Shown here: positions 7,939-64,000 of the stretch, one piece after another
How the letters are laid out: every line of letters starts with the position of its first letter
How positions within the stretch are numbered: position 1 is the stretch's first letter
NCBI GenBank assembly: GCA_907163375.1
Contig: CAJQUW010006842.1
Coordinates: forward strand, 67,001 to 131,000
Reading direction: 5' to 3'
Length of the DNA stretch: 64,000 nucleotides
Source: Prostheceraeus crozeri
Lineage: Eukaryota > Platyhelminthes > Polycladida > Euryleptidae
The notes under the pieces: model-generated
Database searches by the model: none
Told to the model about the DNA's origin: nothing
Seen by the model: only the letters and a program-made list of their open reading frames with translations
Made by a program: the position numbers and the translations under genes

Positions 7939-8480
7939 TATTCAACTACAAGCACTGAGACCGATTGGACCTGTTCTCCTCTATTACAGAAATAAAATGC
8001 CATGTAATCTGGTTACAATCAATGCGTGAAAGACAAATAACTTTGCACGAATCGCAAGTTAGTGCGCTTCAGTTAAACACGTAAGTTAAGTGCAACAAAT
8101 ATGCACAGCATAGGCTGCATGGTTAGGAATCAGTGTTTCCCGCTGGCAAATCAACGTTGAGATTGAAATGCCAAATTGAACTGAAATTACAACGTGGCAG
8201 ACTATTTCCTCAACCTTCAACTTTGAAAATTTAAAGAAAGAAGCATCTGCATGTTCAACAAAATGGCATTAATTTATGTTCACAATTCTAATTAAGAATT
8301 TGATTTGTCAAGACTAGAAATCTGGCAATGAATAAATCTATCAAATTTCCTTATCAATGAGTAACGCCTGTGTGAAACATCTCAATCTCGGATGCGGCAT
8401 TAAGTGATTGCAGAATGCAATCCGCCCTCCACGTGCCTGCGTCAAAGCAGTGCCTTCCTGGCTAATTCACGCTCTCAACA
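7939..8480. other. 5' flank of the lectin gene; no further gene seen
   Basis: This should contain the promoter of the minus-strand lectin gene. A T-rich TTTTATTT lies about 60 bp upstream of its start, but no convincing TATA box or other element can be named. Confidence 0.3.
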
Positions 8481-8490
8481 GATTGTGCGG

Positions 8491-8552
8491 TGGCCTCGTG
8501 GTTAGAGGGTATGCTTGCTCGTCCTCTAGCTCCAACTTCGCTGGTTCGAACC
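8491..8552 (+). ncRNA. tRNA-like Pol III promoter (SINE head)
   Basis: A box-A match (TGGCCTCGTGGT, 8491-8502) and a near-perfect box B (GGTTCGAACC, 8543-8552) are spaced as in tRNA genes. The D stem is mostly pairable, but the anticodon stem and acceptor stem do not pair. This therefore looks like a tRNA-derived SINE promoter and not a working tRNA. It is followed within four bases by a hammerhead-like motif. Confidence 0.65.
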
Positions 8553-8555
8553 TAC

Positions 8556-8597
8556 CCACGACTGATGAGGATCAACTGGCTGAAAAATGTCTCGTGG
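8556..8597 (+). ncRNA. Hammerhead-ribozyme-like motif directly after the tRNA-like promoter
   Basis: Stem I is six perfect pairs, CCACGA (8556-8561) with TCGTGG (8592-8597). The conserved core CTGATGA is exact at 8562-8568, GAAA is present at 8582-8585, and the cleavage triplet GTC is at 8589-8591. Stem III would be minimal (an A-U pair closing a tiny loop), as in type I hammerheads of retroelements. Stem II (8569-8581) is poor: a G.U, one G-C, an A/G mismatch and a U.G pair. The catalytic bases are intact but activity may be reduced. Schistosome Sm-alpha elements combine the same Pol III boxes and hammerhead (established knowledge). That this element works in a similar way is inference. Confidence 0.55.
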
Positions 8598-8639
8598 TGC
8601 CTACATCCATTGATGTTTGTTAAAGTCATCATTTGGAAG

Positions 8640-10600
8640 GTTACCTGCGAAATGTTCGAATGATAGGCCTACCCTATTGGTGGGATCAAGGCTTAACCAT
8701 CACACTTCAGCTGTCACAGAAATTATAATCATTGACTGAATATTTCATCAAAAGTGTCGGCATTTGAACATAGAAATATATATAGATAGTGATAAACATC
8801 AAATAAAAATTGCAGAAATAAAAAAAATCCTCCCTTGCAACCTAGGGTGGTGACAAGTGTTTTGAAAAATATTAATTTCTCACATTGGACTTATTATAAT
8901 TTCTTTTTTTCAGGGGAATGATCATCGCAAGCAGATAACCAGGAAAAGAACATGCTGCTTCACGAGCTGACAGAAACAATAGAATAAATCTTCGAGCAAA
9001 AGATGAATTGAAAAGGAAGTATTGCACAAAATATAAAAATTATGGAATTCATAATATTATTATAATATTAAATTGATTAATAAATTAATTAAATTATAAT
9101 TATATGATCCATAATTTCTAAAATTATGTAAGTAATTATATAATTTAAAAAATTATATAAAATATATAAAATCGAAGCTTCATTCCGTTATTGGCTTAGG
9201 AGTTCCGTACCATGTCATCATTTGAAATCTGTCATGCTGTTGCACTGTTTGCATTCGTGGTCAATACATAGACTGTACATGTGAAGAGGCAGATTTTCGT
9301 CAAAAGTGGAAATAATGAAAAAAAAATCCTCTCAGAAAAAAAGACGTGATTTTCTTAAAAGCAGACGACTAAAATTATGTGAATATTTATTTGTTGAAAG
9401 TTCATTCATTTTCGAGAGTGATGAGAAAAAACAAAAGATAAGTGGGGAAATGAGTACAAGAGAGGTGCTACCATAGTCTATAGTTCATACTTCAGCATGG
9501 TAGATGATCGTATAAATTATCAAGAACTATCTGATACTGAAACATTTGTTCAAAGGAAACATTTGCGCAAAGGACAGTGAATCAAAAAACACGTGTGGTA
9601 ATCAAAACCGCATTAGTCCTACATCTTACACCGACTTGCAGATAATCGCAAGAATCCTACGCTTTTCTTGCGCTCTTACAGAAAATGGAAATCCTCCGCA
9701 GGATCTTGCAGCACTATTGCAAGATATCTTACCGGCAAGATATCTTGAAAATATTGCTGATCCTCTTCCATCAATGCATCATGTTTCCTGAGATATAGCA
9801 CAGAAAACCGAAATACTACTGCCAACTATCAATATCAAGACAAAGCTACTCGACAGCATATTTCACACTTTGCGGGGCTTCTATAAATTCAAAAAGATTG
9901 ATGAATCGTGAATAGCATGAAGCTGAAGCACCAAATTCAGCCAATCAATGCAATTTAGAACCGCTGATTACATCACTGCCATCGGTCATACCTCAGTGTG
10001 AATAATGTTTAATAATGAGACAAGAGTGCTCAGACGTAGGCTGTGTAACACTATTTATAAGTGGCCCAACACTATGGATTCAAATCCGGAGATCTTGGAG
10101 ACCATCGATGAGGAAACAGACGACTGCATGACTACTCGATAACAGAAAGTTTCACTCAAGAAACGTCTTGCTCAGTTCATAACATGGCCTTAGGCTGCGT
10201 TTACACGTGTAACTTTATTGCTGACACTTTTCGATCCATGATGAGTCAGAAAAGAATGGAGGAACAATGGAAGCAAAGAGATGCCTTCAATTATCGTGCT
10301 TCGTGAGTCACCAGACAATAAAAGGGCTGCCACTCTTATCAAAAATAATAACCGGAAAGTTAACTCGGAATGGGCCCCTAAAATACTTAGCAGTAGGCCA
10401 CCTCCAGAAGAGAAACTTGCAATCATTCAATATCACACAATCCGGAAAATTTCGATAGCCTTCAGACAGAAATTGTGTCTGTTCTAGTAAAGATGTTTCT
10501 GAATTCTCTAATCCTTTCTAATCGGCCGATTATTTGTGGACGTTTGAAGACTTTTGTTGATTTTCATTCAGATTTGGTGAGTGATCGAAAGACAAGATTT
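8640..10600. other. No gene seen; contains a very AT-rich run at ~9040-9175
   Basis: Around 9040-9175 the sequence is almost entirely A and T with many short palindromes (AATTATATAATTTA-type). A local inverted repeat built on GCAAGATATCTTACC lies near 9718-9750. No coding segment was recognised. Confidence 0.45.
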
Positions 10601-16630: not shown

Positions 16631-16989
16631 ATCACATTTTCATCTTTTTTGCGGAGTTTCCAGGTTTTTACAATGTTGATGTGCCTTCCAGCTGCACGTA
16701 TGAGATGTTGGCTTTCTATGGTCTATTTTGCATCCCACCTTGAACTTTGCTTTGTCTGTCAAACCGCAGTACAGCACTCTACACCACTTCAGGGATTCGC
16801 TTTCTATGAACTAAGTTATTGCAATTTTCAGGTTTGCTTGAGAGACGCCTGACATGCAATCATATTTCTATGTTACCTCTCGACTTCCGATTCAAAATTC
16901 AAATTCAAGGTTCATGTCACAAATCTGAATCATTTCATTCTCAAAAGTTGACTGAACTGTGCAAGTGAAGTGATCGTCTAACGAAAGTG

Positions 16990-18035
16990 ATGCCGATGCG
17001 AAAGCAAGTCTCACCGAAGAAGAGATCTGAGATTGTGACTCTCTTGAAAGAAGGCTACGCCATTCGCAAAATCTCTGTCAAAGTGGGTGTCCCAAAATCA
17101 ACAGTTTCCGACATAAGAAGTCGTTGGCTTGCTAATCCCTCAGGTCATGGTTCTCCTACAAAGAAACGAACGGGTCACCCTCGACGTTCATCTGAAAGAC
17201 TGGACAGAGTGATTATTCGGCGCTGTGAACAAAATCGATTTTTGTCTTCGAAGCAAATCAAGGCGACCCTCGGAGACTTCGGAGCTTCAATGAGTGAGCA
17301 AACCATCAGAAGGCGACTACAACACGCAGGCTTCAGCTCTAGACGACCAGCAAAGAAACCTTTCGTGAATGCCTTTCAAAGGCGTCGAAGAGTTTTGTTT
17401 GCCCAAAAGTATGTTGAGAAAGGCCCGGAGTACTGGCAAAGAGTGATATTCTCGGATGAATCGTCCTTTGATCTACACGGTAATCGAAGGTCGCTCAGAG
17501 TCAGACGAAGAATCGGAGAACGCTACCTACCAAAGTGCACAATGGCGACGACTAAGCATCCTGTCAGTGTGATGGTGTGGGGATGCTTCTCCAACAAAGG
17601 CGTTGGCAGGCTGAGAATATTTGAAAATGGTGAGAGGGTAAACCAGAAAGTTTATCTTGACGTTCTCCAGAATGAGCTGCTTCGTACTCGACAAGAGTAT
17701 TATCCCGAAGGAGGAGCAATTTTTCAAGATGACAATGCCCCATGTCATCGGGCGAAAACTATTAAAGAATGGCTCGCAAGGAACGAGGTGGAGCACATCC
17801 AAGATTGGCCTGGTCAAAGTCCAGATGTCAATCCCATTGAAAATCTTTGGGCTGTTGTTGGACTGGACGTGTAATCTACGAGAGGGCCCCAAAATCCAGA
17901 TCAGAAATCATTTCTGCCATCATTCAAGCTTGGCATCATGTCATCACCCCCGCATCTTGCACACAACTGGTTGACAGCATGCAACGACGACTGAGATCAG
18001 TGATTCAGGCGAAGGGATTTCCTACCAGGTACTGA
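16990..18035 (+). pseudogene. Tc1-like transposase, nearly intact, one frameshift near the carboxy end
   Basis: The product would be ~345 residues, the normal Tc1 length. Residues ~10-50 are a first helix-turn-helix (RSEIVTLLKEGYAIRKISVK), then a GHPRR hook, then a second HTH (~70-125, with SSKQIKATLGDFGASMSEQT). The catalytic domain follows: first Asp in FSDESSFDLHG, second in FQDDNAPCHRA, and Glu in NPIENLW. Between the last Asp and Glu there are 35 residues by my count, so DD35E and not the classic DD34E of Tc1. Just after ENLWAVV the frame shifts by one base (around 17850-17875) and the tail IYERAPKSRSEIISAI...GFPTRY continues in another frame to 18035. The shift removes the carboxy end from an otherwise open gene. 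The ATG at 16990 is preferred over the upstream GTG. Confidence 0.92.
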
Positions 18036-24497: not shown

Positions 24498-24549
24498 TAG
24501 GTTATTACGAATAAATACGATCACTTTCATTTGTCATCTTTCTTTTATA

Positions 24550-25484
24550 GGCAGCGATTCCGCTTTACTAAGGCAACGTTTCATTATCTACTCGAACTAT
24601 TCGGAGAAGAATTAACAGCAAGTAGCAAGAGAAATAATCCCGTGTCGCCTGAAATGCAGTTGCTCCTGACTCTACGATTTTTTGCTGCGAACACATTCCA
24701 AATTATCGATGGCGACAGTTTCGGTGTACACCAATCTACAGCCTGTAGAATAGTACATCGAGTGTCCAATGTCATTGCTCTTGTTGCTCGTCGCTTTATT
24801 CGACTGCCAACTTTTCAAGAACGACAAGAAATGGCCGCTGAATTTTTTCGAAAACACAATTTTCCTGGAGTTGTCGGCGTTGTGGATGGTACTCATGTGA
24901 AAATAGACGCCCCTACAACATCCGTTTCGGAGCTCTATCGAAATAGAAAAGACTATTTTTCAATCAACGTACAAGTTGTGTGTGATAGTGATTTACGAAT
25001 AAGAAACATCGTTAGTCGCTGGTATGGCTCTGCTCACGACTCGCGTATTTTCAACGAATCATCTCTACGTGACTTTACTGAGGCCCTACCTCAAGGCTAC
25101 TGGGTTCTCGGTGACTCTGGTTATGGATGTTCAAGTGGACTGCTCACGCCGTTCCTTTGTCCCACAAGTGTTGGACAGGAGGCCTACAACAAAAGTCAAA
25201 AGAGAGCAAGATGTACTGTCGAACGATGTATTGGAGTGTGGAAACGCCGCTTTTCTTGTTTGAAGCATCTTCGGGTCAAAATTGAAAATTGTCCAAGAAT
25301 CATCGTCGCCACAGCAGTGTTGCACAATATTGCAATAATGTGCAACGAGAGAGAGTTTGATGACGAGAAATCAGAAATAGATGAACGCGAGGATTTAATG
25401 ACACCGATGGAATGTCCTGATGAGCGAAGAGGAAATGCAGTTCGGAATTCCGTTGTTGTGAATTACTTTAGCAGCTCCAGTTGA
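24550..25484 (+). CDS. PIF/Harbinger transposase, carboxy-terminal exon
   Basis: An open frame of ~310 residues covering the DDE nuclease. It starts with QRFRFTKATFHYLLELFGEE (the conserved Harbinger entry helix) and a helix-turn-helix around HQSTACRIVHRVSNVI. The three catalytic residues are the Asp in GVVDGTHVKI, the Asp in YGSAHDSRIFNESS, and the Glu in RARCTVERCIGVWKRRF, with LGDSGYG between. The frame seems to begin at a splice acceptor (CATCTTTCTTTTATAG, exon from 24550, phase 2), because no ATG lies upstream. The original amino-terminal exon is not present, and the preceding DNA belongs to the nuclease gene. The partner Myb-like gene is convergent at 25984-26787. Function: cut-and-paste transposition with 3-bp target duplications. 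No stop or frameshift is visible inside. Confidence 0.88.
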
Positions 25485-29206: not shown

Positions 29207-29305
29207 TATATTTTCTGGCTGCACAATTGATTTATATATAGGATATATATATACATAGAATTATTTGTTTATGAGAAAGGACATAACTTCAGCCGGTTTT
29301 CGAAA

Positions 29306-30090
29306 ATGTCAGTTTTAGGCAAACCTCCTAAGGATCTGTCAGTATCAGGTTCCCCAGAAGAGTTTCAGCGTAGGATAGACAATTTTAAGAACTACCTCAG
29401 TGTAGTAGAAATAAGTTGCAAGTTCGATTCTCCACAGAAACACGCGTTGCTTCTTAATTGCATCGGGGAAGATGCCGTTAGAGTAATCGCGGGGTTAACA
29501 TATGATGTTAGCACAGATCCATATGGAAAGCTTATAGATGCGTTGAACTCATATTTTGTTCCCAAGTGCAATCTTACTTACGAGAGGTATCGTTTTAGGA
29601 AGCTTGAGCAAGGTACCGGTCTCCGGTCACGTCGTTCGTGAATGAGTTGCATATTGTCGCGAAAAAATGCGATTTTGAAAACAAGACAATTGATACTGTA
29701 GTTAACCAAAATATAAGGGACCAGTTGATACTAGGAATCAATTCGGATGAACTTCGTCGGAGACTTTTGTCGATTAACAACCTGACATTGGACCAGGCAG
29801 TTACACATGCAATCACGTTTGAAAGTACCAGTGAGAAGATAGAGGAAATGAAATCTAGAGATAAGCCAACTGAGCATGCGCCGAGAAATTCTGGAATTCT
29901 TGCTGTCAGATCCCGCAGTAATTCACCACAGAATAGGTTGTCCAGTGACTTTAGGCGAAGTGTTAGATTTAGTTCGCCACGCCGAAGTGAACAAGACCAG
30001 AGAATCATCTGCAATTACTGCCGGCGACCCGGTCACATTAAGAGGAACTGCTTTAAGTTGTTGCGCATGCAGCAGCCAAAGAGAGATTCC
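29306..30090 (+). pseudogene. Gypsy Gag (capsid-like region and zinc knuckle), one frameshift
   Basis: The ATG at 29306 opens a capsid-like segment (PEEFQRRIDNFKNYLSV, then SPQKHALLLNCIGEDAVRV, then NLTYERYRFRKLEQ), the region seen in Gypsy Gag. Near 29600 one indel shifts the frame, and the protein continues as SFVNELHIVAKKCDF...IRDQLILGI in the next frame, through a serine/arginine-rich stretch to a single CCHC knuckle, CNYCRRPGHIKRNC, at about 30010-30050. The shift lies inside the capsid fold and not at a gag/pol boundary, so it is more likely damage than programmed frameshifting. Confidence 0.85.
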
Positions 30091-33000
30091 AGTCCAGGGA
30101 CTAGTCGTATTGCCTCTCTTTTTATTATTTCGGATTTGGATGACATTGAGAGAGGAGAGCTGAAGGAAGTTGGGTGCCAATTTTATGATATATCTGTTCG
30201 GGGAATAGTGGACACAGGTGCCACGATATCTTTATTGTCACTAGAGTTTGTAAATCAGGCAGGACTTCAGAAGGGAGTTCGAAAGGCTAGACATCAGGCT
30301 CTTCTGCCTGACGGCAGAATTTTGAAGTTAGATAAGGCCATTAGCGGCCCTCTGAAAATAGGCGGAAATTGTAATGAAATCTTGTTTTATGTTGTACCTT
30401 CGTCAGTAGGCCTACCTTGTGACTGTTTGATAGGAATGAATTTACTTGGAAGGTTCAGATCAATCCAGCTAAATGAAGAAGGACCTGATTTGATTCTGAC
30501 TTTGTTGCCAAAAACCTTGTCTGAATTTCCAGATGTTTTTGATAAGCCACTTGGCAGAGCTTGTTATACAAAAGAGCCGTCTCCAGTCATTGAGGTCAGT
30601 CCAGAATCGCTCCCACATCAGTGCAAAGTAAGGTCCATGAGCCCTCGGAACTATCAAATATGCAAGGAACAGGTGAAACAGCTATTGGAAGCCGGTATCA
30701 TCGAGGCATCTAGGTCCCCTTGGAGGCATGCTCCGGTTATTGTCCCTAAGCGCTCAGGTGGCTATCGAATGGCTATTGATTATAGGCCGGTGAATAGCCT
30801 GACTAAAGGTGATGCTTACCCGATTCCAAATGTACAGGAACTTTTGCAGCGTTTAGAAGGTTGTTGTGTGTTCTCTACAGTTCACACAGTTTCACTACAG
30901 TTTCACAGTTCTATTACCAACTGCCGCTACACCCATCAGATAAGGAGAAAACCGCATTTTATGCGGTCGGCAATTTATACCAGTTTCGGAGACTACCGTT
31001 TGGGCTCAAAAATGCCGTAAGTTACTGCACGCGTGTAATGCATGAACTCTTCCACGATATAACAGGTGTGTCAGTATATGTTGATGATATCCTCATTCAC
31101 GCCAAGAATAAAGCAGATCATGATAAGGCATTATCCGACGTTTTACGAAGAATTCAAGATAGCAATTTAAGCTTGAACATGCAGAAATGCTCTTTCCATA
31201 AAAGCAGTGTATCATACCTACATGTAGGCCATAAGATCAGTGACGGGAAAATTACCCCCGATCCAGAGAGGACGACAACCATAAGGCAGTTCCCAACGCC
31301 GAAAACTCCGAAAGAGTTACAGCGTTTCCTGGGAATGTGCAATTATTTCCGAAATTACGTCCGAGACTTTGCCTCAATTTCTAAAGATTTGCACGATTTG
31401 GCATCAGGAAAAGAAATCACATGGACAGATGCGACGTTACTAGCATTTAATAAGCTCAAAGATCAATTGTCTGATGGCGTTTTGATCCTCCCGAGGTCTG
31501 AAGAGGAATTAGTGTTGAGCACAGATGCATCAAATGATTGTGTAGGGGCTTGCCTCATGACCAAAGCTGGACAGCCAGTTTCATTCGCATCGAAGAAGCT
31601 CACCGAGACAGAGACACGTTGGAGTACTATCGATAAGGAGACGTTCGCGATTGTATGGGCCATGCAGAGGCTGAGATCTTTCTTAGTTGGGAAAAGATTC
31701 ACGGTGTTAACAGATCACCAACCCTTGAAATACCTTTTACAAGCAGATAGCGTCAGTTCCAAAGTTCATAGATGGAGAGTGTTGGTTTCTGAGTTTGACT
31801 ATGATGTTAAATACATTCCAGGGAAAGAAAATGTTGTAGCGGATGCGTTATCACGAGTTTATTCGATTGCCGAGGTAGATGAAGATGGAGAAGTTTCGGT
31901 TGAGGTTGATGTTATCAGAAGGGCCCAGAAAGATGACCCAGTATTCAAGATTCTTTTCAAAGCAATTGATAGAAATGACAGTCGCCAACCAAATGGAGTG
32001 TCCCAGCAGCTTTGGTGTTGTAAGAATGATTTATCAATCAAGAATGGAATTATTTACGTGAAAGACAAACTCCTAATTCCTCCCCGGAAACGAACTCAAC
32101 TCTTGACAGCACTGCATTATGGACACCAGGGGATAGAGAACATGATACAGAAGGCGACGAGCACATATTTTTGGCCAAACCTCCGGCAAGACGTGCGACA
32201 CTTTGTCCAACATTGTAGAATATGTTCAATGATTAAACCTAAGTTCGTGAACGCGCAGCTGAAGCCATACCTTTTAGATGCCCCTCTTCAAATGATTGCA
32301 ACAGATTACATTGGACCGCTTCCATCAGATGGAGGTTATCAATATATTTTGGTAATCATGGACGCTTTCTCTAGGTTTCCTGAGGCCTACCCAGTGAGGG
32401 ATATGTCTGCACGAACGCTTATTGATAAATTTCGGGATTTCTTTTCACGGTATGGGTTTCCTGACGCTATCCTGTCTGATAATGGCACACAATACAGAAG
32501 CAAGGAATTTTTGAACTATTTACGCAATTTCGGAGTTAAGAAATTATTTACGAATACTTACAGGCCTAGCTCAAACGGTTTGTGCGAAAGGTTTAACGGG
32601 ACGCTACAGAAGAAGCTTAAATGTTTGTTACTCGAACAAAGATTGGAAAGCAGTAGCTGGAGACATGTTTTGCCGACCGCCTTAATGGCAATAAGAAATG
32701 ACATACATGCAACAACAGGGTACACACCTAGCGAGCTTTTTTTAGCCTTTAGAGTCAAGGACCTCTCACTCCCACCCCTTAGCGACCGATACCTTCGGTC
32801 CTTCGGTTCTGCCGCGCAGAACATTGCTAAGCGTAGGCATAGAGCAGATGCACATAGACGTTATGAAAATAGGCAATTCCCTCCCGGCTCAGAAGTACTT
32901 GTCAAATCTCCAATAGTCAAGAAACTTGAGGCACCAGGAACTACGGCTGAAGTTGTTAGTCAAGTTGATAGACATACAGTCATGGTTAAGGAAGGGGGTA

Positions 33001-33326
33001 GGATTAAGAATGAGTCGACTGCTAGGTTATCACCTTTGCCCGTCAAGAATCGTATGATGTCCGAAACTAAAACGGAGGAGGCGGAAGAACGGATCATACT
33101 CGATAGTGAACGACTATCGCCGACCGTCGAAAGGAGATGGGATCGAGTGAACGAGGAAGGTGCAAGAAGTGAAGACCGACCACAGACAGGAAGGACTGGT
33201 GAAACGCGAAATCAGGAGAGAGGAAATCCAAGACCACAGAGGAGCCGCAGGGCGCCGTCGCGCTTCCGAGACTTTGAGATGACCTCGAGTGACATTAATG
33301 TCGACAGTGATAGTGAGTCTCATTAA
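30091..33326 (+). pseudogene. Gypsy Pol: protease, reverse transcriptase, RNase H, integrase; broken in RT
   Basis: Protease active site IVDTGATISLL at ~30205. RT entry WRHAPVIVPKRSGGYRMAID at ~30720. At RT motif A the expected FST-x-D reads FSTVH and the frame shifts (about 30880-30910) within a local duplication of CAGTTTCAC, so the first catalytic Asp is lost. RT then resumes in the second frame with QLPLHPSDKEKTAFY and the YVDDIL motif (~31078). RNase H: LVLSTDASNDCVGA, KETFAIVWA and TDHQPLKYLL. Integrase: an HHCC finger (HYGHQG...CRICSMIKP), core Asp in IATDYIGPLP, Asp in LSDNGTQY, and Glu in SSNGLCERFNG. The basic tail ends at 33326. From RNase H to the end the frame is open. Confidence 0.92.
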
Positions 33327-44153: not shown

Positions 44154-44545
44154 TTCGCCTGGGCATGGAATAGAAAGGTGTCCTCATGACTTGAACTATT
44201 TAAGCAAAAAAATCCTTGGCAGCAGTAGACGCTGCGCTTTTCTCCTTAAAAGAGGGCTCGCGAGTTAAGCTCGAAATTGCCCAAAGTAGCTTAAAATATG
44301 TGGAATGGCTCAGTAAACTGAAGATCTGCACAACTGGCTGCTCTGTGTTCATCTATAATGGCTTTGCCGTGTGCTGATAATCATAGGGATTATGGAGCTC
44401 CAATTCTAGATATTTTAAGCTAGTCTGAGCCATTCCGAACCGTACTGACGAGCCCTTGCAAGGGAAAACTTTGTGTCCAAGGCTGTCACAGAATTCTTGT
44501 GCTTAAAATTCTTCAAGTCTGAGTACATCTCACTATTACATTTGC
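44154..44545. mobile_element. Foldback element with hammerhead-like cores in both arms
   Basis: The left arm starts GAGTGCCAGTTCGCCTGG and contains GGAATAGAAAGGTGTC, as in the MITE at 2358-2533. The two arms (about 44154-44335 and 44365-44545) are inverted copies, with AGCTTAAAATAT and GGAATGGCTCAG on one side and CTGAGCCATTCC and ATATTTTAAGCT on the other. The right arm, plus strand, has CTGACGA (44445-44451), the palindromic stem CCCTTGCAAGGG, AAAAC where GAAAC is expected, and GTGTC (to 44477). The left arm, minus strand (44268-44222), has CTCGCGA, a pairable stem, GAAA and GCAGCGTC. Both point outwards. Neither copy has every catalytic base, so these are relics at best. Confidence 0.5.
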
Positions 44546-45644: not shown

Positions 45645-46934
45645 GTGCAAGAATCCAAAACGCCATGTCCGCGTACAACCGAGACTTCAAACAGTGAAAT
45701 GCGGGCAGCAATCGAAGAGGCTTGATGTGTCACGTTCTTGGAATAAAGTGCCTTCTAAAGTTAATCACCTCTGAAGTTTGATGAAAAAACATGAAAATAC
45801 GCAAACCACTGTTTCACAATGTTTAAAATCTTATGGATCTAACTTTCCTTAGTCTAGAATTAATGGCCAGATTCTTCTAATCAAAGTTGTTTTTGCAGGA
45901 CCTGTTTTAAAAATTAAAAAAATAGAGCAATCAAAGAAGCGCATAATGTCTACAAATCGTAGGCTGTAAGCATGAAATATCATACTTGTACAAGAAAAGT
46001 TCGGGCTTTCACAGCCATACAGGGATTATGATGGAAGATATCTGATGGTGCGCAGTGCACGAGGAGATCTTCGAATTTATGCCCGACGACAGATTGCTAT
46101 AATTTCTATTCATGCCTGAACTATCATGGATGAAAAAACACCTGAGACATGGACCATGGATGTCGATGAACAGTAATCGCATTGATGGATATGTAAAAGC
46201 GGAGGGCATGAATAGGAAATTGTGGCTCCATTGAAAATACATTGAAATTGGCGGGCATAAATTGGAAATTTCCGATTTATCCCCAGCAACCTTTATAGAA
46301 TGCATGATTACTATTTAAATGCCTATCTATGGTCCTTCGGGACATGAAATCAATGACTTGGACTTTCTACAAAGTTTAAAGCCTGATATCAGTGATATAT
46401 CATACACATAATGTACTAGTGCCTCTGATGCGAATACTCATTTGAAATGTTATCTGTGATGCTTCATCTTTCTAACGCTTGTGTGTGCAGGTTACTTCTT
46501 ACTGTCTGTAGCTCCTTAATCATCATATTGTAATGTTATTCATAGCAACGTAACTATTGTTTGCTTTGTTGCCGTCGGCATGAGAATGAGAGCTGAACTG
46601 AGTAAAGGAATTGTAGAACAGGAAATGACACCTTTAGTCGTTTGCAATCTGGATATACGAAATAAAATTTGTTCCCAGGCAGAAAATTGTCTCGTCAACA
46701 TTTCTAAGGTCAAAGTGAACTTTCTCAGACTTTCTCTCCTAAAAGGCAGAATCCGACTTTCCTGTCTTTATTCATGCATCTATCTATGGCATACAAAATG
46801 CAATAGGTGTATAAGATAAATGGGGCATTTTAGGAATCTGAAGCAGCCTTTTCTTACTGACTTTAAGTGAAGAAAATAAAAATAAACTCGTAGTATTATT
46901 TAATAGCTTGAACGTTTTCGATGACTCTCGTCGG
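45645..46934. repeat. Low-copy repeat, copy B (~1.29 kb)
   Basis: Direct-orientation partner of 37792-39136. It starts right after the Tigger element and spacer, with TGTGCAAGAATCCAAAACGC, and its similarity to copy A ends at GATGACTCTCGTCGGTTC, exactly where a CAGAGTTGC hAT-like end begins. That insertion probably displaced the remainder of copy B. Confidence 0.8.
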
Positions 46935-47699: not shown

Positions 47700-47764
47700 C
47701 TTGAAAAATCAATTATTTCAATAATATAATTATTAATGAGCAAAATAAAAGACTATTCATTAGA

Positions 47765-49560
47765 AATAACGATTCGAATATAAAATGGCAAAACCTGACA
47801 AGTAAAGAAAAAGGTCTCAAGGCACTTATCAAAAGAGAGAAGAAAGAAGACATTGTCATCTATCAAACTGACAGAAGTGGGCGATTCTCAGTCGACACAA
47901 AAAGTAATTACAAAGAAATGAGGAAACAACACATTGCAAATGACAGTGACATTATAGAATGTGAAATCACAAAAATTGAACAGCAAATGAACGCACATGC
48001 AGTATTTTGGGCAAGAATGCTACAGGCTGGATATTTTACCAACGATCACTTGAGAATCAGAAATAACATGATCAACAATGGTAGCAATATGCCTCCACTA
48101 TACACGTTGAGAAAAGATCACAAAGAATGCTTGGATACATCAATAGGTCCTGCAGGTAGACCAGTTTGCGGATCGGTTAACTCTCCGAACAATCAATTAT
48201 CTCACCTGTTGAGTATTATTGTATCATAAATCTGGATAAACGATAAAAAGACTGTTTGCCTCAACACAGAAGAGCTAATTGCCGACTTCAACAGAGTTAA
48301 TGATTTGAATTCAACACAAAATATCATAATAGGCTCAGCAGATGTTAAAGCATTATATTCCAGTCTGAACATTGAGTTTACTATTGAAAAAGTTTGTGGA
48401 CCGTTTGAAAAATCAGAAATCAAAATGGAAGGCATAGACTATCGTGAAATAGGATTATATCTTTCTTTGAATAAATCCAAAGAAGAACTTATTGAAATGG
48501 GGATATCAAATTTCTGTCCAACCAGAAAGACGAATGTCGGAAGACCACCAACCATTACAGGCAATGGAATGGAAGAACAGATAAATAAAAGATACGCGAT
48601 GTGGAAACATCCTTGCATGGTTCCAGAAAATGAACACTCAAAAAAAAAAATATTAACAGGAGCCATCAAAATCGGTTTGCAAACAGTAATGAAAAATCAC
48701 ATATACAAGTTTGATGACCATATCAAATTACAAAAAGATGGTGGACCAATCGGACTTGAATTGACTGGAGTAATCGCACAAATCTTCATGATGTGGTGGG
48801 ATGAAAAACTAATCGAGGAACTAGATCAAAGCAATATACACTGTATGCTAATGAAAAGATATGTTGATGATATAACGTTGATATTGTCCTACGAGAATGA
48901 GGTAATGAGTCAACAGCAAGATGATATTGAAGAAATAGAAAATGACAAAAATATTATGAAAATGGTACAAGAAATTGGAAATGAAATTCATCAATCCATT
49001 CAATTAGAAACTGATTTCCCTTCCAAACACTCGATGAGAACAGTAAAGTAAAGAATATATTACATGAAATTTACATGAAAAGTATAGCTTCAAAAATGGT
49101 TATTCACGCAAGAACGTCGCCATCATGGAGTACAAAAAGGACTATTCTCACACAACAAATGCTGAGAATTTTGCTCAACTGTAGTCAACACTTACCATAG
49201 AATCAAACAGTCAAGCATTTAACAGAAATGAGTAAGAGAATGCAATATTCTGGTTATGTTCAAAAATTTAGAACGCAAATCACAGAGTCAGCATTAAATG
49301 CTTACAACAAAATAAAAGAAAATGACAGAAACAAAATCAGACCAATGTATAGACCAAGAGAATGGCAACAAGCTGAGAGAAGAAGAGTGAAACAAACGAA
49401 AAAGAGAACTTGGTGCAAGAAAGATAATTATTACGAAAGTGTGTTATTCATTCAATTAACCCCAAATTCGACACTGAAGAAAGAGTTATAAAGCGAAATA
49501 AAAAAACTGGATTCAAAATCAAAGTTATAGCAACAACAAAAGATACCTTAAAATCAAAAC
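47765..49560 (+). pseudogene. Penelope-like element: reverse transcriptase part
   Basis: The frame reads through EKGLKALIKREKKEDIVIYQ, TDRSGRFSVDT, PPLYTLRKDHKECLD and GRPVCGSVNSPNNQLSHLLS. After an in-frame stop (48229) it continues with the RT palm: Asp in GSADVKALYSSLNIEFTIE (motif A), GGPIGLELTGVIAQIFMMWW (motif B) and MKRYVDDITLIL (motif C). A frameshifted tail (49228-49491) holds the thumb-like region with RMQYSGYVQKFR, RPMYRPREWQQAE and KDNYYESVLFIQLTPN. Order and motifs fit a Penelope-like retroelement whose GIY-YIG nuclease lies carboxy-terminal. That part is found at 50563-51001, separated by an insertion. With at least one stop and one or more frameshifts, the element is dead. Confidence 0.8.
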
Positions 49561-49562
49561 TA

Positions 49563-50562
49563 CACTGTTAATCGCTCAATACCAATCACATACGAAGGAT
49601 GCATACCAAAATATTTTTTGGTATATTTCTGTATATATTTGTATGCTTTTCGTATGATATTTCAAGTGTGGTATGATTTACATACTAAAGCCATACCAGC
49701 ACAATGTTAAAAGAAAGCATCAATCACGTCCAAAGTATGTTGATTTAATGCCCTTTTGTCAATAAAGATCACACCAATGTTACTACTGTTTTGTAAGATA
49801 ATGACATTCAAGAGTCATACTTTCAGTACTGAATTCGATATTAATACATGTAATTCAGATGCATTTCAAAAATAATCAATAAATATTCAACCATCAACAA
49901 GTATGCATTATATAATTTTGAAATTAAGCATTTTATCAATCCGAAATAAAAATACATTATAATTCATGAACGCAAAAATAGTTATGTTTGAGATATATAA
50001 GTCAACATGATTGCACGAAAAATATCGTTTGAATGAATTGATGTTAATCAATTTGGTTCATAATGTAGAGCTAACTAAGCGTCCTGTTAAAGTTGCTAGA
50101 CAAGTGGCAACGACGACAAACACGTGGAGCATAAAATTCATAAAAAATCTAATCCAATGAAATATCACACTATCAAAAAGAAATATTCACGACTGGTATT
50201 ACTGAAAACGTTATTTGACAATGTCATGTAATATACATATATACGAGTATATATTTGCTATGTGACTTAAAGCTCAACATATCAGAGGCATACAAAAGGC
50301 ATACGAATGAGGATGAATTTGCATCGGATCTCGTACATAAAACATACCAACAACTCGTATTTCAGTGTAAAACAGCCAATCACAGATAGATTAGTTCGTA
50401 TCGCTACATGCCAATCACATACGAAAGTAAGTGAGATTTCGTATGAAAAACATACCAGATCTCTGTAAACATACGAGAATCTCGTATCACATTTTAGTTT
50501 CAAATTGTATGTGATTTTAGTATATGTGTGTATGCAAATTTCGCATCCAGCGATTTACAGTG
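49563..50562. mobile_element. TA-flanked 1000-bp MITE inserted inside the Penelope element
   Basis: The ends CACTGTTAATCGCT and AGCGATTTACAGTG are inverted repeats flanked by TA on both sides (49561-49562 and 50563-50564). The insertion separates ...ATTKDTLKSKL from VQRSNPFEKKKC of the Penelope protein, a place where related proteins are continuous. The interior is rich in CATACGA/TCGTATG words and has no coding capacity. TA target duplication suggests a Tc1/mariner-type MITE. Confidence 0.75.
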
Positions 50563-52875
50563 TACAAAGATCAAATCCGTTTGAGAAAAAGAAGTGCACA
50601 GACGAATGCGTAGTATGCAAAAGTAATGGCAAAGGAAAATGTGATGAACAGGGAATAACTTACGAAATTGAATGTGAAGGATGCAAAGGGGTCTATATCG
50701 GAGAAACAGCAAGAAATGCGAAAATCAAAAGAAAAGAATATATAAAGCAAACGAGGGAAAAGAAGGATACATCAGGTTATGGAGACATTGCAAAGAACAT
50801 CATGACAACATAAAACAAGAATTTTCAATGAATATAATAAGTGTACATCATAATAACACAATGGAACGTCAAATAACGGAATCAGTCAATATCAAAAGCA
50901 GTATACAACAGAAAAGGATCGTCATTAACAACAAAACAGAGTGGAACCAACCTTACATGCCAACAGTGGCTATACAGAAGAACGAGAGAGATATAGAATA
51001 AATTATTGTGAACTATGAGACTATTGAATACTGAACTATGCTATATGTGGATATTTTCTGGATATCGATAATGACAATGATAGTTAATAATTTTTGTAAA
51101 TGTTTGCTTAGGATTTCTTTCTATTTCAATAGATAAGGCCAGACCGGCGAAATATATTTCGATACATTTTATTAATTAATTTTTGTGCGCAGAAAGACTA
51201 GAATACTGAAAAACAATATTATTTTATTAATTTCAAAAATAATGATATCAAAGTCTTTCAGCACAACATCTATTGAAATTACTAAAAATATCCACTTCTA
51301 TCGGACATAAATGCAAAATTCCTCGGACACTAACGTGTCTTCGGAATCCATGCATTTATGTCCTCTAAAAGTGGATACTATTCCTATATTAGCATAGCAA
51401 ACTTATATTACATTTGGTTCACTGAAATTGCATTATCAATCTAATAAGATATCCATATTCCGTTTAAAATCATTGCATAATGCAGTAAGGAAATGTTCAC
51501 AATCTTCACTGCTCTTGTAGGCCTACTGTGGAAATCACTGGAAAATTGCTTGATCGGAAATGAGACTGCTCCCAGATCTTCAAGGCTTCAGAAAGTTTCA
51601 GAAGCTTCACGACTAAAGTGTATCTTCTTTTTCCAATTATTTTTTGTGATCAACTATTTGTCTATTCAAAAAGATGAACTTTCTTGCTTGTACACTTATG
51701 ATCAAATAAGAGCTTCATGAATGAATGGATGAATAGTCATATATTTCATCAGTGATAATCAAAAATACATCAAAAGTGGAGCATACATTACAAGTGAAAT
51801 AAGAAAAGAAGTCATAAAGTCACAAAACGGTTTGAAATGCGTGCGGCCATAACAGGAAAGTAGTTTTTAAGTCTTACTGTTTTACATAACGGGATTGACA
51901 GTCTACCATTTCTAAAATACATTAGTGCATTTATGGGATGTTCAGGATTGTGTACTTCATTTATCAATTTCATATAAGCAGATTTACGTTTTTCAAAAAA
52001 CATGTTCTTAAATTCACAATTACATTCGGATTTACATATAACTCGCTTTGAACGTTTGAAAACACGCTTTACAGTTGACGTGATCTGTGCATTGATACTA
52101 CCGAAAAGGGTTATACAATATAGCAAAATGTTTTCAATCATAGCACTATATGCCATCCACAGATCGTCGTGGCTTAAAGAATTTCTCAAAACTTTTAAAA
52201 GGTACATACGTTGAGAACATTTTCTTTCAATAGCTTCAAAATGAGGAGTCCATGACAGCTTATTGCTCCAAACAACAACTAAGATGTTAATGACATCTAC
52301 GACTTGAAATGGAAGTCTATCCAGCATACAATCGACAGCTTTGTTCTTCTTGGTAAAAATCACTATTTTATTTTTCTTCTCATTTATACGCACTAAGTTT
52401 GAAGAAGACCATTGCTGTATGTATTCGACCTCATTCTTCACACTCAGTAAAGATTCTTCTAATTGATGGTCAGAAAAAAGAATAATTTCATAAATATCAT
52501 CAGCGTACTGAACAAATTTTGTGGACAACAATTTCGGCTTCAAATCATAGCAATAAAGAAGAAACAAAAATGGACCCAAAAGAGAACCTTGTAGAAACCC
52601 ACTTGTTACACAGGCTTTCTCACTTAGTGCATACTTTACACGAACTCTTTGAAAACGATCAGTTAAATATCTTGTCAACCATACAATAAAACCGGTGGGA
52701 AAGTTGAGCATTTTGAGTTTGTCAATCAATATGCTGTGAGATATTCTATCGAACGCCTTAGAAAAATCAAAATTGACTAACATGCATCCATCAAAGGCAT
52801 CACTTTCCAGGCACGATGTCACATGGTCATGAATAGAAATAAGTGCACACCTGCAGTCAGACAAAGGTTTGTAAC
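50251..52875. repeat. Duplicated block, copy 1
   Basis: This block is repeated at 61381-64000 (window end) in the same orientation with an offset of 11,130 bp, changing to 11,126 bp by the LINE. It contains the right 300 bp of the MITE, the GIY-YIG segment, the spacer and the LINE 3' half. Differences are sparse, a few per hundred bases by eye. Confidence 0.93.
50563..51001 (+). pseudogene. Penelope-like element: GIY-YIG endonuclease domain
   Basis: Starting right after the MITE, the frame reads NPFEKKKCTDECVVCKSNGK, a cysteine-rich knuckle, then GITYEIECEGCKGVYIGETA with the GIY-YIG core (here I-T-Y ... V-Y-I-G), then RNAKIKRKEYIK. Near 50750 the frame shifts and the rest (RLWRHCKEHHDNI, MERQITESVNIK, INNKTEWNQPYMP) continues in another frame to 51001. 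The same shift is present in the copy at 61682-62131, so it predates that duplication. Confidence 0.8.
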
Positions 52876-53436
52876 TAAACTGATGTGATGGGATCTTCGA
52901 GAGAATTGTCGATTTAATATATTTCAAAACATGCATTTCAAGTACTTTACTTGGCACACTTAAGACTGTGATTGGCCTCACATCATTTAAGTTAGCAGGA
53001 GACGACTTTGGAACAGGGGATACAGCACATGATTTGAGAATTCGAGGAACATAGCGTCGAATAGTATGACATAGAGGTTCGCAAATGTATGGCGCAGCTA
53101 ACTGGTAGGCCTTGAGTGGAATACCATCAGAACCACTTGATTTATTCACGGACAAGTTATCAAGCACAGAAAATATTTCGCAAGGTTCAGATAATGGACA
53201 CCAATCATGTGAATCAACTGTGTCACTGATAGATGAGTGGGGTTGAAGGTCTCTGCGAAAACGCTATTAATTTTGTTGGTAGCACTTTCAATACTGGGAA
53301 ACTGTGATAAAAGATGATCAAGGGCACTACCCGATGATTTCCCTCGAGCTTCAGACACAACAGTCCATATATTTCTTGGGGACGGACTTGATTTCTTCAC
53401 CCAGTTTACTTTGGCTCTCGTAATTTCCTCTTGCAC
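51812..53436 (-). pseudogene. LINE reverse transcriptase
   Basis: The linker (SATNKINSVFAETFN) is followed after a frameshift near 53150 by a 451-codon open RT: SSGSDGIPLKAYQLAAPYI (fingers), RPITVLSVPSKVLE, HQFSYKPLSDC, motif A FDFSKAFDRISHSIL, motif B GFLQGSLLGPFLFLLY, motif C KFVQYADDIYEII, then VVWSNKLSWTPHFE and the basic tail. All three catalytic Asp positions are present. The first 1.1 kb from the 3' end is repeated in the second copy at 62938-64000. The RT frame itself is open to its natural stop at 51812, but it is severed from the endonuclease. Confidence 0.88.
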
Positions 53437-58011: not shown

Positions 58012-60270
58012 CCGTAAAACGGGCAAATTCCAGCCACTTTTTTGGCTTCTTTTTGAATTTTCTGCTATATATTTCATATAGAGTACGAGTTATACCTTCA
58101 TGAACTGCAATTTTGGCTTTCTGAAGACAATCAAAATGAAAAATAGCTTGAACAATGAAATACGTGTATTTAAGAACAACTTAGATACGGGTACTTCGAA
58201 AAACGAAATATGGGTAACCTCAGCCACCAACAGAAATTTTAGCAAAACGAACTGTTAGTAACTAAAACAACAATTCAACACGCAATACAAAGTCAACAAC
58301 AGCTAATTGCAGTTAGAGCACACAAAAAATACATCACTCGTTTCATTATTACAGGCTCCGCAGGTCCATATTCTGCAAGACGTGCATTGGACCCAGTCTG
58401 GTCCATTATATCCGGCAAACGAAATTTTACACAATCCACATTCGTCATCCTCACTGCAAGTTGAGCTGTCTTCATACCGTCCGCATGTGTTGAATTCACA
58501 TTTGACGTTGAGGCGACACTGTGAGACGGGAGAATCGGTCGGCCAGCCGTCACCTTTGCCCCACGGGGTCTTCGTTGATTGGAAGTTTGACCGCGCATTT
58601 CTCGCAGCATCCTAATAAGGCTGGAATCCAGGTCACGTCTGATGGCTTCTTCGCCGTGGGTCTCGGACCTTATCAGGCGGCTCAGTGGAGCGTCTCGATT
58701 AATGGGGGAAAAGCCACACGCTCTGAATCCACTTATCAGATTCTGCTTGGAGGGACTCTCCACCATCTTCCACAACTGGAACAACATGACTCCGAACGAC
58801 TGCTTCGGAATAGGCCCAGTTGCCCTGGACTCCCGACGGAAGTTCTATAGGATGATCCTCCACTTGGCTTTCACAGTTCTGAACACAGCGACGTCAAGAG
58901 GTTGAAGAAGGTGGGTAGAGTTAGGTGGAAGAGCGATGAATTTGATGTTGTATGCAGCAGCCATTTCGATCAATTCAACAGAGAAATGCGCTGCTAAATT
59001 ATCACCGATCACGAACTTTTCTCCGTGAAGATCCCTAACTGCAGGGATTAGAGTGTCACGAAACCAGGCTGCGAAAGAGTAGTCTTTATCAAACCATCCA
59101 CTTTTCGAACAGTTGAACACAGTTCCACGTGGTGCACCTTGCGTCCAAATCTCGTAAACACTGCGATTTGTAGATGACGTAGGGCGGAAGAAGCTTTCCG
59201 TCAGCGGAACCGCAAAACATCAGGGAGATATTGGTCTTTGAATGTTCCTGAACGATTTCGATGCGACGTGTTCTCCGCTTTGCAATCACTTTTTGAGAAC
59301 CAGGATTATCTGACAGTGCGGTCTCGTCGTAGTTGAAGACATGAGAAGGAGAAGCTTCTGATAATCCACATTGCGACAGTTCATCGAAGAAAGCGTTCAC
59401 CGTTTCTGGTCGAAGTGATGACCTGCTGCGTTTGATATTGCATCCCTGACGAAGAACCAGATTGTGTCTGGTCATAAAAGAGTTCACCCAGTCACTTCCT
59501 GGTCGATTATTTGTGAATAGCTCAACTTCACGACCTTTGGATGCTAGATATCGACAGACGAGGTCTTGAAGAAGTTGTTTAGTCAGACCGAATCCCCACT
59601 TGGTAATAGTCTGAATTGTTCGAGCGATGACTTGTTCTTCAGTTTGCGAAAGTTCTGTGGGTCTGCCAGGTCCCGCAACTATCTCATTCTTCTATGATGC
59701 CTTGATATGACGCTGTAGTGTTTCGCGATTGACATGATAAGCATCGGCAGCTTTTCTTTGTGACATTCGGTTTTCACGAACAGCGCTGACAGCTAACTGC
59801 ATATCGTCATCCCTGTAGCTCTTGACGGTTTTCTTCGTGGCCATCACTAACAGCAATCACACATTCGAATGTCACAAGAAAGAAAATTCATTCAGAAAAT
59901 ACGGAATCAAATTCGTTGATCGTCGTGACAGAGATCATGCGCAGGTGCAGGTGAGGACGCAAATCGATAAGACACGCGACTGTGTGCGACATAGATATCT
60001 GATTCATCGCTTCATCGCTGGCAGCACAGTCGAATTAGCAACAATGGGTAATGTCAGCCACCAACGATATTTACGATTTTTTTTAATTTTACGAATTACA
60101 AGCTCCGAAAGCAACTGTAACTAATCCAATTGTTCTGAAATGTCAAAAATGAAATCAGCAAAGAGTGTGAGCATCAGTTTTTAGGTAACTGTGAATGAAA
60201 AGAGTTTTTTGCACTTTTTTGATAAGTGGCTGACATTACCCCTGGTGGCTGACATTTGCCAGTTTTACGG
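58012..60270 (-). mobile_element. pogo-like DNA transposon (2259 bp), full length
   Basis: Flanked by TA (58010-58011 and 60271-60272). The inverted ends CCGTAAAACGGGCAAATTCC and GCCAGTTTTACGG continue into GCCAC/GTGGC. Inside, the words TCAGCCACCAAC and GGTAAYSTCAGCCACC recur near both ends (58211-58232 and 60048-60070), and GTGGCTGACATT occurs twice at the right end, probably subterminal binding sites. The transposase fills the minus strand. Confidence 0.9.
58293..59844 (-). pseudogene. pogo-like DDE transposase, complete domain order, broken frame
   Basis: The ATG at 59844 opens a psq/CENP-B-type HTH (MATKKTVKSYRDDDMQLAVS, RMSQRKAADAYHVNRETLQ), an in-frame TAG (59694), then a second HTH (SQTEEQVIARTIQTITKW) and the DNA-binding region to NSFMTRHNLVLRQG. 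Catalytic residues: Asp in FNYDETALSDNPGS, Asp in KFVIGDNLAAHF after a frameshift near 59120, and Asp in THLLQPLDVAVF, giving DD35D by my count. After a TAG near 58845 the same frame continues (SGFRACGFSPIN) to 58293. Two nonsense changes and one indel separate it from an intact gene. The family is a pogo relative with the Tigger-like LPPNSTHLLQPLD signature. Target is TA. Confidence 0.88.
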
Positions 60271-61681: not shown

Positions 61682-62131
61682 GATTTACAGTGTACAAAGA
61701 TCAAATCCGTTTGAGAAAAAGAAGTGCACAGACGAATGCGTAGTATGCAAAAGTAATGGCAAAGGAAAATGTGATGCACAGGGAATAACTTACGAAATTG
61801 AATGTGAAGGATGCAAAGGGGTCTATATCGGAGAAACAGTAAGAAATGCGAAAATCAAAAGAAAAGAATATATAAAGCAAACGAGGGAAAAGAAGGATAC
61901 ATCAGGTTATGGAGACATTGCAAAGAACATCATGACAACATAGAACAAGAATTTTCAATGAATATAATAAGTGTACATCATAATAACGCAATGGAACGTC
62001 AAATAACGGAATCAGTCAATATCAAAAGCAGTATACAACAGAAAAGGATCGTCATTAACAACAAAACAGAGTGGAACCAACCTTACATGCTAACAGTGGC
62101 TATACAGAAGAACGAGGGAGATATAGAATAA
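61682..62131 (+). pseudogene. Second copy of the Penelope GIY-YIG domain
   Basis: Matches 50552-51001 with few changes: the cysteine knuckle with KCDAQ in place of KCDEQ, GVYIGETVRN in place of GVYIGETARN, and LTVAIQKNEGD in place of PTVAIQKNERD. It shares the same frameshift. No RT part lies upstream of it, because the block boundary is inside the MITE. Confidence 0.8.
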
Positions 62132-62937: not shown

Positions 62938-64000
62938 TCATAAAGTCACAAAACGGTTTGAAATGCGTGCGGCCATAACAGGAAAGCAGTTTTTAAGTCT
63001 TACTGTTTTACATAACGGGATTGACAGTCTACCATTTCTAAAATACATCAGTGCATTTAGGGGATGTTCAGGATTGTGTACTTCATTTATCAATTTCATA
63101 TAAGCAGATTTACGTTTTTCAAAAAACATGTTCTTAAATTCACAATTACATTCGGATTTACATATAACTCGCTTTGAACGTTTGAAAACACGCTTTACAG
63201 TTGACGTGATCTGTGCATTGATACTACCGAAAAGGGTTATACAATATAGCAAAATGTTTTCAATCATAGCACTATATGCCATCCACAGATCGTCGTGGCT
63301 TAAAGAATTTCTCAAAACTTTTAAAAGGTACATACGTTGAGAACATTTTCTTTCAATAGCTTCAAAATGAGGAGTCCATGACAGCTTATTGCTCCAAACA
63401 ACAACTAAGATGTTAATGACATCTACGACTTGAAATGGAAGTCTATCCAGCATACAATCGACAGCTTTGTTCTTCTTGGTAAAAATCACTATTTCATTTT
63501 CTTCTCATTTATACGCACTAAGTTTGAAGAAGACCATTGCTGTATGTATTCGACCTCATTCTTCACACTCAGTAAAGATTCTTCTAATTGATGCTCAGAA
63601 AAAGGAATAATTTCGTAAATATCATCAGCGTACTGAACAAATTTTGTGGACAACAATTTCGGCTTCAAATCATAGCAATAAAGAAGAAACAAAAATGGAC
63701 CCAATAGAGAACTTTGTGGAGCCTCACTTGTTATACAGGCTTCCTCACTTAGTGCATACTTTACACGAACTCTTTGAAAACGATCAGTTAAATATCTTGT
63801 CAACCATACAATAAAACCGGTGGGAAAGTTGAGCATTTTGAGTTTGTCAATCAATATGCTGTGAGATATTCTATCGAACGCCTTAGAAAAATCAAAATTG
63901 ACTAACATGCATCCATCAAAGGCATCACTTTCCAGGCACGATGTCACATGGTCATGAATAGAAATAAGTGCACACCTGCAGTCAGACAAAGGTTTGTAAC
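62938..64000 (-). pseudogene. Second copy of the LINE reverse transcriptase (3' half), cut by the window end
   Basis: Same protein as 51812-52875. It has its own frameshift near 63489 (after INEKK), where the first copy is open, so the two copies have decayed independently since duplication. The motifs FDFSKAFDRISHSIL and KFVQYADDIYEII are kept. Motif B reads SEAPQSSLLGPFLF, with the usual QGS changed to QSS. Confidence 0.88.

Follow-up and report, generated by a model that had tools for sequence, protein, structure and literature searches.

What kind of element gives a flatworm genome a hammerhead ribozyme next to transfer RNA (tRNA)-like promoter motifs? The question is raised by positions 8491-8597 of a 64,000-nt stretch of Prostheceraeus crozeri DNA (contig CAJQUW010006842.1, positions 67,001 to 131,000 of the forward strand; hereafter the window). 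A first-pass annotation described this locus as a tRNA-like RNA polymerase III (Pol III) promoter fused to a hammerhead-like motif, and considered it a possible animal short interspersed nuclear element (SINE) with its own ribozyme. The feature is probably an old copy of a metazoan retrozyme, the RNA of which would be copied by an enzyme of Penelope-like elements (PLEs) from two start sites.

The window belongs to an assembly of 2.05 Gb in 14,165 contigs, which was searched for relatives of the feature. Scoring the best 40 of 1913 first-look candidates gave at least 66 genome matches to window 8400-8700, and an exact 30-nt family core is present in 1,807 copies genome-wide, compared with 0 for the reversed control. 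The feature is therefore not a solitary sequence, the outcome that the first-pass annotation had set down as fatal to its proposal. The younger relatives are tandem repeats with a period of 303 bp (3.7 copies in locus L009 and 4.0 in L012). Analysis of 41 fetched loci, from which L060 was dropped as the same locus as L005, yielded 132 full units, 116 of which are exactly 303 bp in length; L022 shares 601 bp with L067, the two being parts of one array, so that one full unit is counted twice. Among 195 ribozyme-bearing units in these loci, 163 are identical from CCCACGA to TCGTGG. The longest frame from a methionine to a stop codon in the unit spans 49 aa. The family thus has the structure of a metazoan retrozyme, which comprises short tandem repeats with type I hammerheads and no coding frame.

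The family ribozyme reads CCACGA-CTGATGA-GGCC-CAACA-GGCC-GAAA-CATGTC-TCGTGG. Stem II is intact (GGCC-CAACA-GGCC), and the core and stem I are retained; the poor stem II of the window copy, for which the first-pass annotation had looked to a family consensus, is consequently explained by decay. Stem III is minimal, with 2 bp (A-U and C-G) and two closing bases inside the palindrome ACATGT, and is missing from the minimum free energy fold of the monomer. Past stem I, an internal loop is followed by a second helix, AACC/GGTT, which is built from box B bases. The 58-nt ribozyme stretch folds better than 200/200 shuffles, and the 303-nt unit better than 100/100. Across 28 distinct alignment rows, 94.2% of the cells are paired, compared with at most 41.1% when slid. 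A hammerhead covariance model, the check proposed by the first-pass annotation, was applied to the family. Rfam Hammerhead_HH9 (RF02275) matches end to end with an E-value of 4.1e-7, and its model positions 1-77 align with the family core, both of stems I and II and the internal loop of stem I; stem III is shorter than in the model, and the 33.5 bits obtained do not reach the gathering score of 52. According to PMC7761336, as far as its available part goes, helix III is weak in most type I hammerheads, in many cases blocking cleavage of the monomer; most tested invertebrate hammerheads have a stable helix III, and the amphibian ones need dimers. By this analogy, the minimal stem III of the flatworm family would stand nearer to the amphibian, dimer-needing group. 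A drawn double-hammerhead dimer reaches -33.4 kcal/mol versus -41.4 for the computed dimer fold, and ViennaRNA gives it no support.

The units are organized in head-to-head arrays. In a hand count of 100 of the 1,807 cores, close opposite neighbours comprise 13 head-to-head and 2 tail-to-tail pairs. The outer 3´ ends of the arrays lie mostly at two sites, and the inner ends vary. Site A is located near nt 38 past the cleavage site (TTTGATAAAT|) and site B near nt 68 (TTGTCTAAA|), 30 nt apart; both are placed in the loops of two predicted hairpins. The fetched loci contain 31 head-to-head pairs, of which 21 combine A with B, 5 combine B with another position, 1 is B + B (the old copy L026) and none is A + A. 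The remaining 4 extend off the fetched stretch, and the run-off arm of L067 continues in L022, where it ends at A.

The fetched loci were chosen by similarity to the query; for this reason, exact end patterns were listed separately across the genome in contig order. Exact junctions to TA repeats number 335 at A and 289 at B, compared with 1 at one control position with similar TA overlap. Pairing was counted for 100 listed A ends and 91 listed B ends on contigs up to C4016, with neighbours at most 10 kb away, all of them ends that abut TA repeats. Among 44 head-to-head pairs, 43 are A + B (23 one way and 20 the other), 1 is B + B and none is A + A. Independent drawing of ends would give mixed pairs in about half. 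Two tail-to-tail pairs and one same-strand pair were also found, and the other ends have no listed partner. The sole B + B pair, at C816:12285-15375, perhaps represents two insertions. Target repeats, read by eye rather than by systematic scoring, measure 13 bp in L005; those of L021 and L072 are no shorter than 9 bp. In many loci inside TA tracts, target site duplications (TSDs) are unreadable. No poly(A) or other tail of the long interspersed nuclear element (LINE) type was seen in the printed outer ends. The rule of one A and one B per pair suggests that reverse transcription began at two distinct points of a single RNA, each target strand serving one of them.

Sequence variants indicate that the two arms have a common source. 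Of 25 loci, 20 have the same base at unit position 128 in all their units; 10,000 shuffles gave a mean of 7.0 such loci and never more than 14. The two arms agree at this position in 13 of 14 loci. In 4 of 36 loci (L015, L018, L023 and L074), private variants are fixed in every unit of both arms; most other private variants are singletons. On account of this coherence and of the private variants common to the arms, a single RNA, or a set of RNAs from a homogeneous source, was probably the template of both. Because the units continue through the cleavage site, that template was either circular or multimeric and uncut.

A known enzyme activity would account for this layout. A PLE starts reverse transcription at two adjacent internal sites, as reported in the accessible portion of PMC11167929, which explains the tail of genomic copies by this two-site start, calls the signature unique to PLEs and describes cleavage of both strands of AT-rich DNA. 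PMC3846280, likewise seen in part, describes inverted head-to-head copies, one of which may carry a 31-bp tail, and TSDs of 8-10 bp. PLEs are abundant in the flatworm genome, in which the C-terminal piece of a degenerate PLE from the window (47708..51180) has 16,159 first-look candidates, 150 of them scored. Two of the four examined PLE head-to-head pairs, L079 and L086, show the tail layout. The arms of L079 are 98.6% identical; one directly abuts a 13-bp direct repeat, and the other carries 49 additional bp. The 3´ ends of the L086 arms lie 39 bp apart.

The retrozyme would accordingly move in the following way. Transcripts of tandem copies, perhaps begun at an internal box A and box B, would be cut at every hammerhead, and the resulting 303-nt units would probably be circularized. 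A Penelope-like enzyme would nick the two strands of an AT-rich target, which is often (TA)n. It would start reverse transcription at two sites of one RNA, in predicted hairpin loops 38 and 68 nt past the cleavage site. Each start would copy the RNA upstream of it, often through several units, and joining of the two complementary DNAs 5´ end to 5´ end would produce a head-to-head array that ends at A on one side and at B on the other. A more specific proposal is about evenly balanced between true and false: the RNA would be a Pol III-driven self-cleaving circle, and the PLE reverse transcriptase would start at both hairpin loops simultaneously, one per target strand, and roll round the circle to give head-to-head tandem arrays. 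Retrozymes would then be the SINEs of PLEs.

Several observations weigh against copying by a PLE enzyme from two starts on a retrozyme RNA. A long multimeric transcript in homogeneous arrays would give variant coherence similar to that of a circle. The fold with the two hairpins is not beyond shuffles (z -0.88, 36/200 as good). One arm ends elsewhere in 5 of the 31 fetched head-to-head pairs, and the old copies, namely the window copy and its duplicate L026 (ends 59/56), lack the A + B layout. Among the PLEs, L083 and L084 (two of the four loci) present no clean tail with a TSD. The retrozyme unit has no sequence similarity to the PLE loci L079-L082 (best E-value 0.75 or worse), and for this reason no particular PLE is named as the helper. 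The covariation check proposed by the first-pass annotation also failed, with 0 of 16 pairs changed on both sides in the 28 distinct rows, because the family copies are too similar to each other. The ribozyme half of that annotation accordingly stands on the restored stem II, the retained core and stem I and the HH9 match; the ribozyme appears to be supported by architecture and conservation, not by covariation.

Three other routes to such arrays can be weighed against the same data. A tRNA-derived SINE could have been moved by a LINE, with inversions arising by twin priming in the manner of L1 and tandems by unequal exchange. The box A/B-like motifs and a LINE-type reverse transcriptase frame in the window are in keeping with this route, and twin priming does invert the 5´ part of a copy. 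In L1 inversions, however, one end is fixed and the other, internal end varies, in contrast to outer ends that both lie at fixed sites 30 nt apart and occur one each (43/44). The printed ends without a poly(A) tail and the private variants common to the arms in four loci also argue against LINE mobilization, which is unlikely. The name SINE proves too narrow: no LINE-type tail is visible in the printed outer ends, and the family, with its tandem and often head-to-head arrays, fits a retrozyme that has the integration signature of PLEs. Satellite DNA spread by recombination or by extrachromosomal circles, with the ribozyme as a passenger, would explain homogeneous tandem 303-bp units; hundreds of dispersed fixed-end junctions at TA repeats, the target duplications in three loci, the A + B pairing and the varied inner ends make it a very improbable source.

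The head-to-head arms could also arise by fold-back or self-priming of one complementary DNA, as proposed for Penelope elements. The part of PMC3846280 that was available favours self-priming on the grounds of palindromes at inverted junctions, and the arms of the PLE L083 are identical across 788 bp. A self-copied arm nevertheless predicts A + A or B + B, yet A + B is the rule, and the inner ends of the arms differ in most of the 12 printed junctions, which leaves fold-back with little credence. Beyond the retrozyme, the A + B pairing disfavours fold-back copying in PLE-type integration and favours two starts on one RNA.

The promoter is a separate matter. Box A and box B of the unit carry 2 mismatches in total. 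The boxes stand in tRNA-like order, 41 nt apart. Of the 132 units, 128 and 129 carry them without change, a conservation to be read against that of the entire unit. A matching or better pair occurs in 127 of 2000 shuffled units; no tRNA was detected in the window by ARAGORN, and no tRNA family was matched in L009:1100-1300 by Rfam at E-values up to 10. The tRNA half of the first-pass annotation is thus suggestive only. TTTT is found in 1 of 132 units; its scarcity was dropped as evidence for Pol III, given that 1007 of 2000 shuffles also have no TTTT. An internal Pol III promoter is plausible, not shown. The motifs may instead be fortuitous or fossil, and transcription may depend on read-through, which has been suggested for retrozymes of other animals; this proposition falls just short of even likelihood. 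The shuffle results for the boxes and for TTTT and the missing tRNA match favour read-through, and PMC7761336, in its accessible part, states that retrozymes seem promoter-less. On the other side stand the box order, spacing and constancy, as well as the schistosome Sm-alpha elements, which unite tRNA-like sequence with hammerheads (PMC2770079, in part). Read-through concerns the promoter only and is compatible with a retrozyme copied by a PLE enzyme.

Comparison with known systems is limited to the available parts of the cited papers. The non-LTR (long terminal repeat) retrozymes of Acropora, Mytilus and Ambystoma (PMC7229834, PMC7761336) resemble the family in the type I hammerhead, the short non-coding repeat (303 nt versus about 170-400 nt), the tandem arrangement, the absence of a visible LTR and the presence of PLEs in the same genome. 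The family differs from them in the layout of its arrays, which are head-to-head and have two preferred 3´ ends (the main text of PMC7229834 nowhere uses "inverted"), in its box A/B-like motifs, perhaps in a G+C content of 50.2% for the L009 unit versus values below 50%, and in a minimal stem III versus the stable helix III of most tested invertebrates (PMC7761336). The schistosome Sm-alpha and Sj-alpha elements (PMC2770079, PMC8490949) share a SINE-like repeat, tRNA-like sequence, a type I hammerhead and thousands of copies. Compared by description, Sm-alpha is linked to tRNA-Gln-TTG (PMC2770079), whereas the flatworm family has no tRNA match, and the portions of the two schistosome papers at hand do not mention head-to-head A/B arrays. 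Like the family, PLEs of the Penelope/Poseidon type (PMC11167929, PMC3846280) have two adjacent 3´ ends and a hammerhead upstream of the start sites, insert into AT-rich targets with short TSDs, and carry a tail on one arm of a head-to-head pair. Unlike them, the family has no protein, a 303-nt unit and no sequence similarity to the PLEs compared.

A role of PLEs in retrozyme mobility was suspected earlier: PMC7229834 names PLEs a strong helper candidate, and PMC7761336 finds no motif that points to a helper, each within its available text. The present arrays suggest the missing footprint, a PLE-type integration signature in retrozymes. No report of two-site ends in retrozymes was found in the literature searched, many journals and all supplements being outside its reach. 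The two-site, one-each pattern can be searched for in any animal retrozyme (coral, mussel or axolotl) and is therefore testable on existing assemblies.

Within the window, one full decayed unit of the 303-bp family occupies 8356..8670 (+) by alignment to the L009 unit. It is circularly permuted, running from unit 68-303 and then from 1 to about 81, with an uncertain right edge. Identity to the family is about 92% over unit 68-303 and 72% over unit 1-81, and the copy is an old relic that belongs to an older subfamily. A short inverted arm at 8311..8349 (-) corresponds to unit positions 21-59 in a local alignment (score 56; shuffles at most 42, 0/500 as high), and is also present in the duplicate copy L026. 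The copy sits within a longer duplicated stretch that is 95.9% identical to L002 across 1,919 bp. All motifs named by the first-pass annotation were found at their positions within 8491-8597. The box A-like motif TGGCCTCGTGG (8491..8501, +) has 1 mismatch to TRGYNNARNNG, which is taken here as the box A consensus, and the box B-like motif GGTTCGAACC (8543-8552, within the feature 8543..8553, +) has 1 mismatch to GGTTCRANNCC, which we take to be the box B consensus; both are suggestive only. The 5´ strand of stem I, CCACGA (8556..8561, +; 97.6% of cells paired in the 28 distinct family rows), is followed by the core CTGATGA (8562..8568, +) and by the decayed stem II, GGAT CAACT GGCT, which is GGCC CAACA GGCC in the family (8569..8581, +). 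The segment 8582..8591 (+) contains GAAA (8582-8585), the minimal stem III and GTC (8589-8591); its family form is GAAACATGTC, and the window copy has C->A at 8586. Cleavage is predicted after 8591, at the start of the 3´ strand of stem I, TCGTGG (8592..8597, +). In the young family, the region 3´ of the cleavage site (8598..8670, +) is where the arrays have their two end sites, A at unit 38 and B at unit 68.

Taken alone, the window copy does not raise the hammerhead core beyond chance, and the genome family settles the matter. The window contains 3 instances of a loose core pattern; 2.0 are expected, and 3 or more were obtained in 30 of 100 shuffles. The fold of 8553-8600 is only somewhat better than shuffles (z -1.14, 24/200 as good), and Rfam at gathering scores returned no match in the window and none in the 20 related loci L009-L028. 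A second hammerhead-like string at 44445-44487 (+), with CTGACGA, a CCCTTGCAAGGG hairpin and AAAA, was set aside because no convincing stem I was recognized by eye, and a weak family match at 46678 is not copy-like in appearance.

The window also contains a degenerate PLE at 47708..51180 (+), recognized from translations by a reverse transcriptase piece, a GIY-YIG-like piece (by eye) and a hammerhead-like motif at 51130-51153. One piece has a weak RVT_1 match below the cut-off (E 7.6e-4), and two others have no Pfam match. This PLE is a relative of the proposed helper and is separate from the retrozyme element. The 3´ regions of PLEs carry the hammerhead-like motif BTGANNAGGCCNNNNCGGYGAAAT in 511 copies genome-wide, and it is also found in L079, L080, L082, L083 and L086; position 4 of the window copy deviates from the pattern. 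In normal hammerheads, core positions 3 and 8 are C and G; in the PLE motif they are T-A in 67 and G-C in 21 of 100 listed copies, and are able to pair, G-T included, in 92 of the 100, the pattern having barred A at position 3. Judged from the sequences, the C3-G8 core pair seems to covary. A LINE-type reverse transcriptase occurs at 51815-53263 and 62941-63998 (-), and a PLE tail end at 50577-50810 and about 61716-62128 (+). Both recur at a spacing of about 11.1 kb, in the manner of a recent duplication. Another copy of the PLE, the third, was located at C5688:42044.

Other mobile elements, at 16969-17871, 24501-25481, 29231-33323 and 58296-59691 of the window, comprise Tc1-type and Harbinger-type (DDE_Tnp_4) transposases, a Gypsy-type frame set and a transposase-like frame. 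The last two were judged by translation only, and Pfam gave no match for 59092-59691. Elsewhere in the assembly, a COX1 gene at C6227:15936-17282 (L085) reads AGA as Ser and TGA as Trp; ATA stands where Ile is expected, and AAA where Asn is expected in one case. These Ile and Asn positions are presumably conserved, and the codons suggest the echinoderm/flatworm mitochondrial code.
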